From: Levilactobacillus brevis
GTDB taxonomy: Bacteria; Bacillota; Bacilli; Lactobacillales; Lactobacillaceae
Assembly: GCA_021383565.1 (NCBI GenBank)
Contig: CP079699.1
Coordinates: 620,001 to 684,000, forward strand
Reading direction: 5' to 3'
Length of the DNA stretch: 64,000 bases
Of the stretch, positions 7,512 to 57,873 are shown piece by piece; position 1 is the stretch's first letter; every line of letters starts with the position of its first letter. The position numbers and the translations under genes are program-made. The notes below the pieces were generated by a model. That model searched no databases, was not told where the DNA came from, and was given only the letters and a program-made list of their open reading frames with translations.

Positions 7512-7722
7512 GACAATTTGCCGTTGACTGGTCGCCTTGCCGTTCGCGAAATCTAGGCTGGAACGCTGGGGTAGGCCGGTCCGAGCCATAGAGCGGTCTC
7601 GGACCTTGCTTTGAGCCGAAAAGCCCTCGTCTCAAAGTCACCAATTTATCAGCAAGAATCGCTGATAAATTCCCCGGCTGAGCCTAGATTTCGCTTCACT
7701 CACGGCTACGTTGACGATTGTC
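7512..7722 (-). repeat. Structured intergenic repeat, full copy A (reverse)
   Basis: Read on the reverse strand, the element starts with GACAATCG and ends with CGCGAACGGCAAGGCG. A perfect closing helix pairs CGAAATCTAGGCT with AGCCTAGATTTCG. It encloses three hairpins: AATTTATCAGC/GCTGATAAATT, CTTTGAG/CTCAAAG and GGTCCGAG/CTCGGACC. Copy E at 43882 shares the termini, the helix order and the loop ACCGCTC..TGG, but has different stem bases that still pair. It lies in an intergenic region. I do not recognise it as a named RNA family. Confidence 0.85.
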
Positions 7723-7789: not shown

Positions 7790-7877
7790 TTACAATCGTG
7801 GCAGAGTTCGCCAGGCGTGCAGCCGACCGTTTACCTATTGGTAGGCGGAACGCCTGACTGGCGCGAACGGTAAGGCG
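7790..7877 (+). repeat. Structured intergenic repeat, minimal copy F
   Basis: This short relative begins ACAATCGTGGC and ends GCGAACGGTAAGGCG, like the full copies, but the interior is a single extended stem-loop. The outer helix pairs CGCCAG with CTGGCG and GGCGT with ACGCC. The inner helix pairs CCGTTTACC with GGTAGGCGG using two G-U pairs. It lies between copy A and the 3' end of the YfhO gene. Confidence 0.7.
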
Positions 7878-12760: not shown

Positions 12761-12805
12761 AAGCAACGTCAACGAGCCCATGGGCTGGTGGGCGTTGCTT
12801 TTTTT
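12761..12805 (+). terminator. Terminator of the PBP gene
   Basis: AAGCAACG...CGTTGCTT hairpin followed by TTTTTTT. Confidence 0.9.
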
Positions 12806-12813
12806 AGCAGAAA

Positions 12814-12996
12814 TAAATTTAGTGTGGCTGAGAAAATGGCGTCTTTGAGATGCGGGCTGACGGCTCAAAGCGAGGAACAAGATCGCCCTTTAGCTAGTCC
12901 CGTCCTGCCCATCGCGATCCAGACCAAATTTGGGGAATGGTAAGGCGGCCAGTCCGCGACTAGCCGATTATCATGGATGGTATCCTTTTCATACTA
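12814..12996 (+). repeat. Structured intergenic repeat, degenerate copy B
   Basis: The 3' half matches other copies closely (GTCCTGCCCATCGCGATCC, then ACCAAATTTGG, then GGTAAGGCGGCCAG). Hairpin 2 is present as CTTTGAG/CTCAAAG at 12843-12870. The 5' half of the closing helix is only partly preserved (AAATTTAGTGTGGCT, imperfect pairing). A tail of about 40 bases (GCGACTAG...ATTATCATGGATGGTATCC) is shared with copy C. Confidence 0.75.
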
Positions 12997-20525: not shown

Positions 20526-20562
20526 ACTGAAGGTTGAAAGCTATAAAATAGTTAGAATCCGT

Positions 20563-20710
20563 GGTATGACAAGGATACCATCCATGATAATATCCTAGTC
20601 GCATACCGGCCGCCTTACCGTTCGCCAAATTTGGTCTGGATCGCGGTGGGCAGGACGGGAAAAGCCAAAGGGCGGTCCCCACAGCGCCGGAATCTCTGGC
20701 AGTCGCAGAT
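20563..20710 (-). repeat. Structured intergenic repeat, 5'-truncated copy C (reverse)
   Basis: Read on the reverse strand, it contains GTCCTGCCCACCGCGATCC, then GACCAAATTTGGCGAACGG and TAAGGCGGCC. A tail hairpin GGTATG..AGGATA/TATCCT..CATACC (plus 20563-20607) follows and is shared with copy B. Hairpin 3 keeps the loop motif ACCGCCC..TGGC. The 5' strand of the closing helix is missing. Confidence 0.75.
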
Positions 20711-20773
20711 GGTGTTGATGGCTAGTTTAATGGCGATAGGCCCTGTCAGCTGGGAATCGGGGAGTATTCACAA

Positions 20774-20964
20774 ACTTTCAATCTTTAGTGCTAAATCTAA
20801 CGCATAAATCGACACGGCCATTGCGGTCGTGTGCGGTTGAAAAGAGAAGTCGTCGACAGCTACAAGCTGTGGGCGGCTTCTTTGTTTGCCGAACGTGGCC
20901 GACGGCTGCCAGTGACCCCCGATTGTCCGTTAGTTGGTTCGGAAGCTGACAAGCCGTTTTTTTT
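20774..20964 (+). other. Structured intergenic segment ending in a terminator-like hairpin
   Basis: Three hairpins follow one another: ACACGGCC/GGTCGTGT (20812-20832), AGAAG..CAGC/GCTG..CTTCT (20845-20881) and ACGGCT..CAG..CCGA/TCGG..CTG..AGCCGT followed by eight T (20902-20964). CTTTCAA at about 20774 can also pair with TTGAAAAG at about 20837. This could be a small RNA or an attenuator leader for the gene at 21092. No known family is recognised. Confidence 0.45.
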
Positions 20965-24477: not shown

Positions 24478-24590
24478 TTGTATTTGTGGACTTCCACAGC
24501 TGCAACCGCTCGGGACGAGTCATTAAGTTTTCCGCTTGCGGAGCACTTGTTTTCGGCGAGTCTAAGTCTTAAATTATAAGGAGGTGCACA
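24478..24590 (+). promoter_or_regulatory. Probable L21 leader RNA
   Basis: About 120 bases lie between the promoter and rplU and contain short hairpins (for example GTGGA..TCCAC and TCCGC..GCGGA). In Firmicutes a structured L21 leader occupies this place and is thought to mediate feedback by a ribosomal protein. The assignment rests on position and local pairing. Confidence 0.55.
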
Positions 24591-28513: not shown

Positions 28514-28620
28514 TTACGGGTTTTGTGGGGATGAATGGCTCTTGGATAGTTAGCGAGGGAACGTGATTCGTTTTTTAGCGGGTCTGAAAACAGCAATTAA
28601 GTATTGCTACGGTGCAATGA

Positions 28621-28730
28621 CTAGTTGGGAAGGGTGAAGACCCAAGGCGAGGAAAAGAGCGGGGTTTTGGCCTCTTTCCGTCCTGCCCACGGCGTTCTCG
28701 CCCAAACTTGGCGAACGGTAAGGCGGCTAG
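28621..28730 (+). repeat. Structured intergenic repeat, 5'-truncated copy D
   Basis: The 3' half is well kept: CGTCCTGCCCACGGCGTTC, CCCAAACTTGGCGAACGG and TAAGGCGGCTAG. Hairpin 2 is TTGGG/CCCAA and hairpin 3 is GGAAA.GAG/CTC.TTTCC, again with sequences differing from other copies. The 5' strand of the closing helix is absent. Confidence 0.72.
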
Positions 28731-41233: not shown

Positions 41234-41260
41234 TTTTAGGAACGAAATGAGGTGACCGCA

Positions 41261-43678
41261 ATGGCCCAGATTGGCCAAATTCTAGTGGACGTGCCGACGA
41301 TGCAGACTAATGATCCTTATTCTTACGCGATTCCTACTGAACTGGAACACCAAGTTCAGGTGGGGATGCGCGTGATTGTCCCGTTTGGCCGTGGGCATCG
41401 CTTGGTCTCCGGCGTGGTCGTGGGACTGAGTGACGTGACCAGCTTTGATGGTCAGCTCAAGCCTATTCAGACCGTACTGGATCTCGCACCGGTCTTGAAC
41501 GCCGAGCTGCGTCAGTTGGCCGATTGGCTGGCGAAGACCACCTATGCCTTTCGGATCACCTGCATCCAAACCATGCTCCCAAACCTCTTGAAGACGCAAC
41601 CCAAGCGGCAGATCCAACCCACCACCACGTTGACGGCGGCCGAAATGGCCACGTATTTTCCCGACGGTGCACCGCGCGACTTTGACGCGGCGAAGCTAGA
41701 CGACACCACGGTGGCGGGACTCCTGAGGCTTCAACGGGCCGGTAAGGTGGAGGTCGTCTACGAAGTGAAGAACAAGGCCGCCGCGAAGACCACGACGGGA
41801 GTTACCCCAGCGCTGACGCCGGCAAAATTACGCGAGATTGCTGGCGAAGTGAGCAAGCGCGCACCGAAACAGGCGCAGCTCCTGACTTACTTGGCTCAAA
41901 TGACGCCGGATGACGTCGTGGCCCAAGCCACCGTTAGCAAGCGTGCTGGCGTGTCACCAGCCGTGATGGCGACGGCGGCCGACAAGGGCTGGCTGACGAA
42001 GTCTCAGTTGGAGGTCTATCGCGACCCCTTCCACCAACCCGTCAAGCCCACCCAGCCGCTTCAGCTAAATGCTGAACAGCAGGTCGCTGTGCAGGCCATT
42101 ACCCGCGCGATTGACGATCAGCAGACCCAGAACTTTCTGGTCGAAGGGGTGACTGGAAGCGGCAAGACCGAGGTTTACCTGCAAAGCATTGCCCAAGCCC
42201 TTCAACAGGGGCGAACGGCCCTAATGCTGGTGCCCGAAATTGCTCTGACACCGCAGATGGTGAACCGGGTCAAGGCTCGATTTGGACAGCGCGTGGCCGT
42301 ACTCCACAGTGGTCTGTCGAAAGGCGAACAGTACGATGAGTGGCGGCGAATCGACCGTGGCGAGGCGACGGTAGTCGTCGGGGCACGGTCAGCGGTATTT
42401 GCCCCCGTCGAGAACCTAGGCATCATCATTATGGATGAGGAACACGAGAGTAGCTATAAGCAGGATGAAAATCCGCGGTACCACGCCCGCGACGTCGCGC
42501 TGTGGCGAGGAAAGTATCACCACTGTCCGGTAGTCCTCGGGAGTGCCACACCATCACTGGAGACGCGGGCACGAGCGGCCAAGGGGCTCTACACGCGACT
42601 GGTCCTATCGAAGCGGGCTAAGGCGCAACCCATGCCGACCGTGCACATCGTGGACATGCGTGAACAATTGAAGCAGCAAGGAGACAGCGATTTTTCCGCG
42701 CCATTGATGGCCGCGATTCAGGAACGTTTGGACCGGCACGAGCAGATCGTGCTGATGTTGAACCGCCGGGGCTATTCGTCGTTTGTGATGTGTCGGGACT
42801 GCGGGTTTGTGTTGAAATGCCCGAATTGCGATATTTCGCTGACCTTGCACATGGACACCCACAGCATGAAATGCCACTACTGCGGGCATGAAGAAGCCAT
42901 TCCCCACGTTTGCCCGAACTGTCACAGCAAGAAGATTCGTTACTACGGGACCGGGACGCAGAAGGTTCAACAGGCGTTGGAGAAGCTCCTGCCCACCGCC
43001 AAGATTTTGCGGATGGACGTGGATTCCACGCGGCGCAAGGGTGCTCACGAGCGAATCCTCCGACAATTTGGCGAACACAAGGCAGATATTCTCCTGGGCA
43101 CGCAGATGATTGCCAAGGGCCTAGATTTTCCCAACGTCACGTTGGTGGGGGTGTTAAATGCCGACACGGCGCTGGGATTGCCAGACTTTCGGGCTAGCGA
43201 ACGGACCTTCCAGCTGTTGACGCAGGTCAGCGGTCGTGCGGGGCGTGCAACCAAGCCCGGAGAGGTTTACATTCAGACGTTTAACCCCGACCACTATGCC
43301 ATTCAGTTGGCTCAACGTCAGGACTACGAGCGCTTCTTCGTGACGGAAATGCACATGCGCCATCAGGGAAATTACCCGCCGTATTATTTTGCGGTCCAGC
43401 TGACGGCAAGTCACGAGGAGGAGGCCGTGGCGGCTAAGGCCATGTACCAGATCGTAGCGGCCTTAAAGCAAGGATTGAGTTCACATGCAATTATCCTCGG
43501 ACCGACACCCAAGGCGATTGCCCGGGTAAAGCGCAAGTACTACTACCAAGTCGTGATTAAATACAAGCAGGAGCCACAATTACGGCCGGTGCTGGAACAG
43601 ATCCGGCAGGCGGCCCAAGTGCCAGCACGCCACGGCTTATCGGTCACGATTGACTCGGAACCGATGAATTTCATGTAA
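41261..43678 (+). CDS. priA: Primosomal protein N' (replication restart helicase)
   Basis: A 3'-5' helicase that reloads the replisome at stalled forks. An N-terminal DNA-binding domain spans about 1-110. The helicase core has Walker A 'VTGSGKTEVYL', Walker B-type 'IIMDEEHESSYKQDENPRYH', and the motifs 'VVLGSATPSLET' and 'LGTQMIAKGLDFPNVTLVG'. Zinc-binding cysteines are in 'CRDCGFVLKCPNCDISL' and 'CHYCGHEEAIPHVCPNC'. The ATG at 41261 gives 805 residues and follows GAGGTGA. It lies between coaBC and fmt as in other Firmicutes. Confidence 0.96.
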   Translation: MAQIGQILVDVPTMQTNDPYSYAIPTELEHQVQVGMRVIVPFGRGHRLVSGVVVGLSDVTSFDGQLKPIQTVLDLAPVLNAELRQLADWLAKTTYAFRITCIQTMLPNLLKTQPKRQIQPTTTLTAAEMATYFPDGAPRDFDAAKLDDTTVAGLLRLQRAGKVEVVYEVKNKAAAKTTTGVTPALTPAKLREIAGEVSKRAPKQAQLLTYLAQMTPDDVVAQATVSKRAGVSPAVMATAADKGWLTKSQLEVYRDPFHQPVKPTQPLQLNAEQQVAVQAITRAIDDQQTQNFLVEGVTGSGKTEVYLQSIAQALQQGRTALMLVPEIALTPQMVNRVKARFGQRVAVLHSGLSKGEQYDEWRRIDRGEATVVVGARSAVFAPVENLGIIIMDEEHESSYKQDENPRYHARDVALWRGKYHHCPVVLGSATPSLETRARAAKGLYTRLVLSKRAKAQPMPTVHIVDMREQLKQQGDSDFSAPLMAAIQERLDRHEQIVLMLNRRGYSSFVMCRDCGFVLKCPNCDISLTLHMDTHSMKCHYCGHEEAIPHVCPNCHSKKIRYYGTGTQKVQQALEKLLPTAKILRMDVDSTRRKGAHERILRQFGEHKADILLGTQMIAKGLDFPNVTLVGVLNADTALGLPDFRASERTFQLLTQVSGRAGRATKPGEVYIQTFNPDHYAIQLAQRQDYERFFVTEMHMRHQGNYPPYYFAVQLTASHEEEAVAAKAMYQIVAALKQGLSSHAIILGPTPKAIARVKRKYYYQVVIKYKQEPQLRPVLEQIRQAAQVPARHGLSVTIDSEPMNFM

Positions 43679-43749
43679 GGACAGCTGTTTTGTGGTCGAC
43701 CAGCCAGCAGATTTCGAAAAAATCAAGTGAAATTGGCGAAGACGATAGG

Positions 43750-43765
43750 GATTGGGCGCCCAATC
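43750..43765. promoter_or_regulatory. 16-bp perfect palindrome
   Basis: GATTGGGCGCCCAATC lies 71 bases after priA. It has no loop, so it resembles an operator half-site pair more than a terminator. The binding protein is unknown. Confidence 0.35.
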
Positions 43766-43881
43766 TGCTATGATTAGGATGTGTCCGGTTTTTTTAGGTC
43801 TCTGGCGTTTATGCTGATTGGATGAATATCGACTGAGACACTATATTTATGATGAGGTGTCGACGGGCATTGACGGTAAAA

Positions 43882-44074
43882 GACAATCGTAGCCGTGAGT
43901 GAGTCAAATCTGGGCTCAGCCGGGGGCATGATGTCTGGTGGGTTACCAGACATCATGCGGCGACTTGGAAACGCCGATTCTTGGCGGTTTCAAGCGAGGT
44001 GCGAGACCGCTCCTTGGCTCGCACCGGTCCTTCCCCGCGTTCCAGCCCAGATTTGGCGAACGGTAAGGCGGGCA
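43882..44074 (+). repeat. Structured intergenic repeat, full copy E
   Basis: It runs from GACAATCGTAGCCGTGAGTG to GGCGAACGGTAAGGCG. The closing helix CAAATCTGGGCT (43905-43916) pairs perfectly with AGCCCAGATTTG (44044-44055), and outer GCCGT pairs with ACGGT. It encloses three hairpins: 13 bp GCATGATGTCTGG/CCAGACATCATGC (43926-43958), CTTGGAAACGCC/GGCGGTTTCAAG (43964-43994, one mismatch) and GGTGCGAG/CTCGCACC (43998-44025). It lies between priA and fmt and contains no ORF. Confidence 0.88.
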
Positions 44075-44169
44075 GACCCCTGGTACTGCCGGCGGAATCC
44101 CTGGCAACCGGAGACAGAGCGACTTAATAACAAAATCAAGAAGATAAAACCAAGAAAGTATGGTGTACG

Positions 44170-45114
44170 ATGACTTCAGTAATTTTTATGGGCACGCCCG
44201 AATTTTCGGCGCCCATTCTGAGCAGTTTAATTGAAAAGGGCTACGACGTTTTAGCCGTTGTGACCCAGCCCGATCGGCGGGTTGGCCGCAAGCACGTCTT
44301 GACCGCGTCACCCGTTAAGCAGGTGGCGGTGGCGCACGACATCGAGGTGCTTCAACCCCAAAAGATTTCCGGAAGTGACGAGATGGTTCGGGCCATTGAG
44401 TTGGCGCCCGATCTGATCGTGACGGCGGCGTTCGGCCAATTCTTACCAACCAAGCTCTTGAAGGCGGCCAAGGTGGCTGCCGTGAACGTTCACGCGTCGC
44501 TACTGCCTAAGTACCGTGGCGGTGCCCCCGTGCACTACGCCATCATGAATGGGGATAAGGAGACCGGCGTATCCATCATGTTCATGGAAAAGAAGATGGA
44601 TGCCGGTGCCGTGTTGGCACAACGCGCCATTCCGATTACCGAACAAGACGACGTGGGTTCCATGTTTGATAAGCTTAGCCTGGTAGGCCGGGACTTGTTG
44701 CTGGAGACGTTGCCTAAATTGCTGGCTGGTGAGATTACGCCGGTACCGCAGGATGAGTCAAAAGTCACCTTCTCACCGACCATCAAGTCCGATGAAGAAC
44801 GGATTGACTTGAACCTAAGTGCCCATCTGATTGACTGCAAGGTTCGCGCATTACGGCCAGCCCCCATCGCCCACATTTACCTCAACGGCGTGCGGACCAA
44901 GCTCTGGGACGTGACCGTCTTGGATCAGACGACTGACTTGCAGCCGGGGGCGCTGGTCAGTCACGACAAGCACCACCTGGCCATTGCGACCGGGGAACAC
45001 GGCGTCTTGGCCTTAAACGAGATTCAACCGGCCGGTAAGCCGAAATTGAGCATTACCGACTTTCTGAACGGAACGAGCGACGCACTGACAATAGGCGAAC
45101 AGGTGGCTGAATAA
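44170..45114 (+). CDS. fmt: Methionyl-tRNA formyltransferase
   Basis: Formylates initiator Met-tRNA using 10-formyl-tetrahydrofolate. 'VIFMGTPEFSAPILSSLIEK' opens the hydrolase-fold domain. The catalytic 'VNVHASLLPKYRGGAPVHYA' and 'IMNGDKETGVSIMFMEKKMD' follow, and an OB-fold C-terminal domain begins near residue 205. The 314 residues are canonical. Its stop overlaps the ATG of rsmB. It starts a long chain of closely spaced genes (fmt-rsmB-stp-prkC). Confidence 0.97.
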   Translation: MTSVIFMGTPEFSAPILSSLIEKGYDVLAVVTQPDRRVGRKHVLTASPVKQVAVAHDIEVLQPQKISGSDEMVRAIELAPDLIVTAAFGQFLPTKLLKAAKVAAVNVHASLLPKYRGGAPVHYAIMNGDKETGVSIMFMEKKMDAGAVLAQRAIPITEQDDVGSMFDKLSLVGRDLLLETLPKLLAGEITPVPQDESKVTFSPTIKSDEERIDLNLSAHLIDCKVRALRPAPIAHIYLNGVRTKLWDVTVLDQTTDLQPGALVSHDKHHLAIATGEHGVLALNEIQPAGKPKLSITDFLNGTSDALTIGEQVAE

Positions 45115-56783: not shown

Positions 56784-57818
56784 ATGAAAATTGCCGTTGA
56801 CGCAATGGGTGGCGACTACGCCCCCGCCGAGATTATCAAAGGGGTTGAGCAAGCCCGCGACGCCTACTCAGACGTTGAGTTTTTGGTGTATGGCCAGGAG
56901 GAACAGGTTAAGCCGCTGATTCAAGACGACACGCGAATCACGCTGATGCCAGCCGCCGAAGTCATCACAATGGAGGATGAACCGGTACGGGCCATTCGCC
57001 GCAAGAAGCAATCAAGCATTGTCCTGGCCGCAACGGCCGTGAAGGAAGGGGCCGCGGATGCCTTCTTCTCCGCCGGAAATTCCGGTGCTGTTCTGGCCGC
57101 GGGCCTGCTGATTGTGGGGCGGATCAAGGGGATTGACCGACCGGGGCTGACCACGACGCTGCCCGTACTACGCAAGCCGGACCAATCCAGCTTTGTTATG
57201 CTGGACGTGGGGGCAAATGCCGATACAAAGCCATTTAACGTGGTCCAGTACGCCGTGATGGGGCAATACTATGCGCAGTCGATCATGCACGTGAAGCAAC
57301 CGCGGATTGGCCTCTTGAACAACGGGACCGAGGCTGACAAGGGAGACATGGCTCACCAGGCCATCTATCAGGCGTTGGCCAGCATTGACAGCCTGAACTT
57401 CATCGGTAACGTGGAATCGCGAGAACTGTTGAACGGTGCGGCGGACGTCGTGGTGACCGATGGCTTTACCGGTAATGCGACGCTCAAGGCTATTGAAGGT
57501 ACCGCATTGTCCATGCTCAAGCTGATTAAGGGCGAGATCATGAGCGGCGGCCTGGGCGGCAAGATCGGCGCCGGACTATTGAAGCCGGTCTTCAAGAACG
57601 TCCAGAGTGCCATGGACTATTCCCAATATGGCGGGGCGGTCTTGTTGGGCCTCAAGGCGCCGGTTGTGAAGACGCACGGCTCCAGCAAGGCACCAACCGT
57701 TAAGAATACGATTGGTCAAATCCGTGAGCTGGTCGAAACCAAGAGTGCCGACCAACTCGTCACGTATTTCGCGGACCACACCGACGAGATGGCGGCGCTG
57801 AAGGAATCTTTGAAGTAG
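56784..57818 (+). CDS. plsX: Phosphate acyltransferase PlsX
   Basis: Makes acyl-phosphate from acyl-ACP for phospholipid synthesis, acting at the membrane surface. 'IAVDAMGGDYAPAEIIKGVE', 'SGNSGAVLAAGLLIVGRIKG' (given in part) and 'GLLNNGTEADKGD' are conserved. The 344 residues are normal. AAGGAGACG precedes the ATG. It lies between recG and acpP, the typical Firmicute lipid cluster. Confidence 0.96.
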   Translation: MKIAVDAMGGDYAPAEIIKGVEQARDAYSDVEFLVYGQEEQVKPLIQDDTRITLMPAAEVITMEDEPVRAIRRKKQSSIVLAATAVKEGAADAFFSAGNSGAVLAAGLLIVGRIKGIDRPGLTTTLPVLRKPDQSSFVMLDVGANADTKPFNVVQYAVMGQYYAQSIMHVKQPRIGLLNNGTEADKGDMAHQAIYQALASIDSLNFIGNVESRELLNGAADVVVTDGFTGNATLKAIEGTALSMLKLIKGEIMSGGLGGKIGAGLLKPVFKNVQSAMDYSQYGGAVLLGLKAPVVKTHGSSKAPTVKNTIGQIRELVETKSADQLVTYFADHTDEMAALKESLK

Positions 57819-57842
57819 GCTGTGGGTTGAGTTTGCTGACAA

Positions 57843-57873
57843 ATGCGGCAGACAGAATCCCTGACAGCCGCAG
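57843..57873 (+). repeat. Hairpin with short shared intergenic motif
   Basis: TGCGGC...GCCGCA encloses AATCCCTGACAG. The 18-base pattern AATCYCTGGCAGYCGCAG recurs, with changes, at 20690-20707, 44096-44113 and in reverse at 51792-51810. Confidence 0.45.

Follow-up and report, generated by a model that had tools for sequence, protein, structure and literature searches.

The closest described counterparts of the element reported here are BOX, RUP and SPRITE of Streptococcus pneumoniae, interspersed intergenic repeats that fold as RNA when co-transcribed and are enriched between convergent genes (PMC3049150). BOX and RUP have terminal repeats and target duplications, and RUP is linked to IS630-Spn1 (PMC3049150). 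Correia/NEMIS elements of Neisseria and ERIC are structured MITEs too, with effects on the transcripts in which they lie; RNase III cleaves Correia transcripts right at the terminal repeats (reviewed in PMC10969869).

The Lactobacillaceae element resembles these systems in its intergenic position and structure but differs from each of them. BOX, RUP and SPRITE are much shorter or differently modular, have no two paralogous multi-helix modules lying on opposite strands and occur mostly in S. pneumoniae and S. mitis; we found no sequence relationship to the Lactobacillaceae modules. Unlike in Correia elements, the terminal repeats (TIRs) sit outside two separate cloverleaf-like folds. The TIR CTAAAGGTTGAAAG and an 8-bp duplication are held in common with a 1,559-bp member of the IS4-family ISs (NF049925), but the MITE interior shows no transposase-derived sequence, its cargo being the two structured modules. 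A conserved multi-helix junction and strong covariation recall the multi-helix cis-regulatory RNAs of Rfam; by contrast, the modules are mobile, high-copy and show no gene association. What distinguishes the element from BOX, RUP, Correia and ERIC is its inverted pair of complex RNA modules, an arrangement studied in detail in three genera and observed at loci of several others.

A folded module between priA and fmt

The copy under study, copy E, is a real and well-bounded fold of 180 bases at positions 43890–44070 (plus strand) of the window, the whole 64,000-nucleotide stretch of Levilactobacillus brevis DNA analysed here. Across an alignment of 25 copies from the same genome, family similarity extends from TAGCC (43890) to AAGGCG (44070). 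Copy E is a complete module A with a four-way-junction fold (cmsearch with covariance model R1, 178 bits, E = 6.3e-44; nhmmer positions 1–181 of 182). Its stability has a z-score of −6.2, and none of 200 dinucleotide shuffles was equally stable.

The perfect 12-bp closing helix of the preliminary description is borne out by the sequence and the MFE fold: CAAATCTGGGCT at 43905–43916 is exactly complementary to AGCCCAGATTTG at 44044–44055, both on the plus strand. Three hairpins had also been described, of 13, about 11 and 8 bp; their number stands, and their lengths here are 14 bp, 12 positions and 8 bp. All are on the plus strand. Hairpin 1 (43926–43958; 43926–43939 with 43945–43958) is the most variable in sequence and length. 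Hairpin 2 (43964–43994; 43964–43975 with 43983–43994) includes a G-U and an A-G mismatch and carries a conserved unpaired A after GAA/GAG. Hairpin 3 (43998–44025) has inner pairs in addition to its 8 bp (43998–44005 with 44018–44025) and contains a conserved bulged-A motif, GAG-A-CCG...GGCUC. The outer internal loop was considered as a candidate k-turn. Downstream of the fold, the 19-nt stub GGCGGAATCCCTGGCAACC (44091–44109, plus strand) resembles the 3′ end of module B on visual comparison with the module B alignment; confidence in this assignment is low because module B lies on the other side and strand in intact elements.

Both termini had been said to recur elsewhere in the window. For the 3′ motif GGCGAACGGTAAGGCG this holds, with 8 occurrences at up to 3 mismatches (3 of them exact) against 0.7 expected. 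The proposed 5′ terminus GACAATCG was rejected, since it is not common to the 25 aligned genomic copies and lies outside the family. Among the further copies that had been listed, only 7533–7708 (minus strand; R1, 177.9 bits, E = 7e-44) is a second complete module A. The remainder are remnants: two partial modules with an intact 3′ part, at 12774–12947 (plus; R1, 70.7 bits; nhmmer 53–182) and 28618–28725 (plus; R1, 19.3 bits; nhmmer 69–182); a weak, degenerate module A remnant at 7820–7877 (plus; R1, 16.4 bits, E = 0.006); and 20611–20677 (minus), which belongs to a 264-bp MITE with an internal deletion (20526–20789). This MITE keeps both terminal repeats, at 20526 (plus) and 20789 (minus), together with the 3′ ends of module A (minus; matching positions 114–182) and of module B (plus; matching positions 143–176; locus L244). 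A weak, possible module B remnant lies at 57810–57869 (plus; R2, 20.4 bits, E = 1.6e-4). At 24494–24573 the window also contains the leader of ribosomal protein L21 (Rfam RF00559, L21_leader).

Copy E lies between priA (41252–43678) and fmt (44170–45114) and is codirectional with both genes. It is an orphan module left behind in the priA–fmt operon: module A is complete, with neither a TIR nearby nor a module B upstream, so that copy E itself shows no terminal repeats. In 12 of 29 species the priA–fmt gap measures 27–56 nt. In the remaining species it spans 155–946 nt, and these wider gaps are mostly occupied, in either orientation, by family members or elements of the same style. Across species, this gap (43679–44169 in the window; L160–L189) has been the target of repeated invasion, the sequence families involved being alike in style but different from one Levilactobacillus species to the next. 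More module-like sequences (for example, GTAAGCCGAGAGGTCGGCAGATATGGGCT...AGCCCATATCTGCCGGCCGGTAAGGCG) occur at five of these loci (L161, L163, L164, L168 and L169), where divergence puts them beyond the reach of plain blastn.

An IS4-type MITE with two inverted modules

In a contiguous 400-kb stretch of the host genome taken together with the window, module B repeatedly lies about 80–90 nt upstream of module A on the opposite strand. The two modules are homologous (paralogous), and the model of each detects the other. An intact element reads TIR, arm of about 70 nt, module B (minus), spacer of about 80 nt, module A (plus), arm of about 80 nt, TIR. The Levilactobacillus data contain 140 adjacent head-to-head pairs, with spacers mostly of 78–85 nt; the same arrangement holds for every one of the 26 adjacent pairs in two other genera (17 of 17 and 9 of 9), and several elements of other genera have spacers of 20–57 nt. 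The sequence of the A–B spacer, at about 48% GC, is unconserved even inside one genus.

The TIR CTAAAGGTTGAAAG forms both ends of dozens of elements, the arms outside the modules measuring about 70–80 nt, and in copies from the host's own genome the modules stand at a fixed distance of about 84 nt from it. The TIR pattern occurs in 23 of the 36 genomes of the genus, and its reversed control in none. TIR-bounded elements are mostly 450–700 bp long, chiefly about 600 bp, within an overall MITE range of about 200–700 bp. With the TIR start set at CTAAAG and the flanking 8 bp compared, the target duplication is perfect in 14 of 66 TIR pairs; when one mismatch is allowed the count is 19 of 66, compared with 0.65% in shuffled comparisons. 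Another genus has the same arrangement, with TIRs and the 8-bp duplication TTAAAAAG (L331/L323), and a TIR-bounded insertion in a relative (L157) corresponds to an empty orthologous site in the host genome.

A sister species provides a partner: an intact IS of 1,559 bp (L312:211–1769; G019 contig 114) that has CTAAAGGTTGAAAG at both ends, is flanked by the 8-bp duplication CTGATTAA and encodes a 488-residue DDE transposase of the IS4 family (NCBIfam NF049925, E = 7.5e-141). Because its ends and duplication are those of the module-bearing elements, the carrier of the modules is identified as an IS4-type MITE. A 224-bp TIR element without modules is likewise flanked by a perfect 8-bp duplication, TAAGTGAA (L260/L286; G008, contig 17:27923), and the duplications of the IS and of this element together indicate that the TIR moves without the modules. 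The ends of the 224-bp element are like those of the IS, and it contains a terminator-like hairpin. An intact, transposase-bearing copy between TIRs was not found in the host genome; one TIR locus there has an IS-like end. Contigs of two draft genomes (G024 and G027) break just inside an identical TIR, which suggests recent activity of a high-copy element.

Given TIRs, target-site duplications, the ends of an autonomous IS without its transposase, and occupied as well as empty sites, we assign copy E, with high confidence, to an IS4-type MITE family as its module A. The preliminary description had suggested both a MITE-like mobile element and an RNA family absent from Rfam. Both suggestions are supported and are two layers of one thing, the mobile unit being a larger MITE of about 600 bp with an IS4-family partner and the fold its cargo module. 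Neither of two outcomes that it had named as refuting, a lack of covariation and a match in Rfam, occurred. Two other mobile origins were entertained and abandoned. Copies consisting of the 3′ part only had raised the idea of SINE-like retrotransposition, which we rejected given the head-to-head pairs and internal deletions that remove the central 5′ ends: the 264-bp element in the window retains both TIRs, so internal deletion can explain 3′-only copies and their apparent 5′ truncation, the mark expected of target-primed reverse transcription. Duplications and TIRs fit a DDE transposon. An IS200/IS605 or REP-like origin, considered because of a 5′ GTAG, was dropped when the TIRs and 8-bp duplications were found.

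The repeat had been described as never lying inside a gene. This is broadly right, with 167 clusters intergenic; another 23 overlap a crude ORF call, and some of these ORFs are probably spurious calls over the element itself. By gap type, 66 clusters are tandem, 57 convergent and 15 divergent, and enrichment between convergent genes is a pattern of the pneumococcal repeats too (PMC3049150). Paired units show no orientation bias relative to the downstream gene, nor do lone A modules (14 sense, 11 antisense); there is hence no sign of hosts keeping the sense orientation.

Strand-specific constraint and its possible meaning

A covariation analysis, which the preliminary description had proposed as a check, gave a positive outcome. 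Of 41 model pairs, 27 have changes on both sides, and 96.9% of cells pair. The covariation score is 0.400 compared with 0.160 after shuffling, no shuffle out of 500 scored as high, and a shift of the partner by a single column cut pairing to less than half. Hairpin 1, hairpin 3 and the outer helix can differ greatly in sequence among copies while pairing is kept. In close pairs, the rate of change in stems is about half that in loops, and the modules diverge 2–3 times more slowly than the spacer and the arms do. A helix interrupted by an unpaired A, which follows GAG and faces GGCUC, is common to hairpins 2 and 3 across genera, and CCCACAGC is a conserved stretch.

The constraint is also specific to one strand of each module. 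Leaving out one mostly-GU pair per module, G-U outnumbers A-C on the own strand by 151 to 74 in module A (one-sided p = 1.6e-7) and by 119 to 27 in module B (one-sided p = 2.8e-15); as the sequences share descent and are not independent, both p values are indicative only. The ratio is 46 to 17 among changes between recently separated copies and weaker, 118 to 77, in two other genera. Since A and B lie on opposite strands, folding of just one strand of the complete element cannot account for both excesses. Judged from such sequence comparisons, the excess points to selection on an outward-reading folded RNA or on one exposed DNA strand; with covariation and RNA-strand-specific constraint both present in the alignments, the modules form a candidate structured RNA family. 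We infer RNA function from these pairing statistics.

How might a mobile element profit from two such modules? We propose that inverted duplication of one structured RNA module would make the element orientation-proof. A transcript reading through from either side would contain one module in antisense and then, at the exit from the element and directly upstream of whichever gene comes next, the other in sense; this second module would form the four-way junction and act in cis on that transcript. It might shield the downstream mRNA from 5′–3′ decay after cleavage in an unstructured part or, alternatively, set a processing point. Insertion would then be cheap for the host, allowing the family to reach very high copy number. 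That the modules give protection or defined processing of downstream mRNA is a tentative proposal, which we hold at somewhat less than even confidence, and confidence in the exact biochemical step is low. The more specific idea, that the inverted pair supplies every read-through transcript in either direction with one working copy of a folded RNA device, is held with slightly lower confidence. For the combined account, IS4-type MITE identity together with the read-through mechanism, we regard the case as evenly balanced, and it is the best overall explanation at hand. Many copies lie between convergent genes, where a downstream gene gains nothing, and this speaks against the account, as do the unbiased orientation of paired units and lone A modules, the G-U/A-C asymmetry, which also fits folding of one exposed DNA strand, the lack of a transposase in the host's own elements with this TIR, and copy E itself, in which module A is complete and the surrounding MITE incomplete.

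Other readings of the same data fare less well. Modules A and B could be small RNA genes that are transcribed from divergent promoters in the central spacer and act in trans, as the constraint on each module's own outward strand and the invariant head-to-head layout would allow. However, the spacer is unconserved and without an obvious promoter, in several elements of other genera it is only 20–57 nt long, hardly enough for two internal promoters, and the module 3′ ends lack a terminator-like U run; we consider such genes unlikely. Internal promoters being unlikely, and suppression of Rho-dependent polarity as well, protection or processing of the downstream mRNA is favoured. Rho antitermination was judged unlikely because Rho (TIGR00767) was above cut-off in none of six Levilactobacillus genomes tested, the host included, and in only 5 of 21 genomes tested overall. 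Rho was present in the tested genomes of genera g5, g56 and g61 and missing from the Levilactobacillus genomes G000, G004, G012, G016, G024 and G032.

The fold might instead work as single-stranded DNA, the 3′-outward (transferred) strand folding at each end and aiding transposition or replication-coupled activation. The constrained strand is indeed the 3′-outward one at both ends, the fixed spacing to the TIR would suit such a role, and DNA also tolerates G-T over A-C. Against this, the IS partner and the module-less 224-bp element carry 8-bp duplications, so the TIR transposes without modules, and IS4-type transposition is not known to expose so long a single strand; a DNA role therefore seems improbable. 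Hairpin-templated correction is known for quasipalindromes, and a functionless, degenerate inverted repeat could keep its stems by such correction or by recombination between copies, given that copies are many and the modules are inverted paralogues. Templated correction, however, restores Watson–Crick pairs without strand preference and would leave no excess of G-U over A-C, the arms and spacer are not preserved, and specific unpaired bases are conserved across genera, all of which makes absence of function very improbable. That the fold began as a host riboswitch or leader and was then spread by copying is hardly credible. Such an origin would account for the complex multi-helix fold and for copy E standing upstream of fmt, but Rfam gave no match at E values up to 10 bar one at chance level, no downstream gene is consistent, orientation is random, and the element is absent at priA–fmt in 12 of the 29 species.

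Were paired RNA devices to make insertion tolerable, they would explain more than 150 copies per genome and represent a new way for a transposon to manage host transcripts. In this family, mobility through the ends, strand-specific selection on the cargo RNA and host tolerance can be told apart, three ideas that for bacterial repeats are usually treated as one.

Abundance and distribution

Copies in the host genome were counted by search and in one contiguous 400-kb stretch. Plain blastn gave 45 matches to the repeat, and a covariance model built from 30 copies gave 115, including at least 70 strong full-length modules. By plain DNA similarity the repeat occurs in 28 of 36 Levilactobacillus genomes searched (host included) and in none of 63 genomes outside the genus. 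An exact-pattern scan of named genomes likewise returned, among the matches listed, Levilactobacillus only: L. tujiorum, L. tongjiangensis, L. yonginensis, L. hammesii, L. brevis, L. suantsaiihabitans and a strain filed as ‘Lactobacillus sp.’. The covariance-model search that had been called for at the outset recovered the fold from 80 of the 301 Lactobacillaceae genomes, spread over 11 of 40 genera. The limit to one genus seen by DNA similarity thus reflects sequence divergence only.

Copy number ranges from tens to more than 150 per genome across at least 11 genera of lactic acid bacteria; with the module-B model, several genomes of two other genera hold at least 150 candidates or close to that. 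Plasmids, phages and IMG/VR yielded no DNA-level match in searches insensitive to diverged copies, and TIR-arm queries gave chance matches only. No Rfam 15 family matched the modules of the window or of other genera at the gathering threshold, and we found no description of the repeat in the open-access literature. What appears to be a very abundant and widespread structured sequence of a major food and gut bacterial group is missing from Rfam. Its hundreds of copies constitute a natural experiment on folded RNA inside operons and its relation to downstream genes, and recognizing the repeats would prevent spurious ORF annotation inside them.

At five loci of genera g56, g5 and g21 (L342–L346) we observed a shorter module variant of about 140 nt that lacks one of the hairpins and keeps the core with its outer-stem internal loops, which are symmetric and purine-rich.
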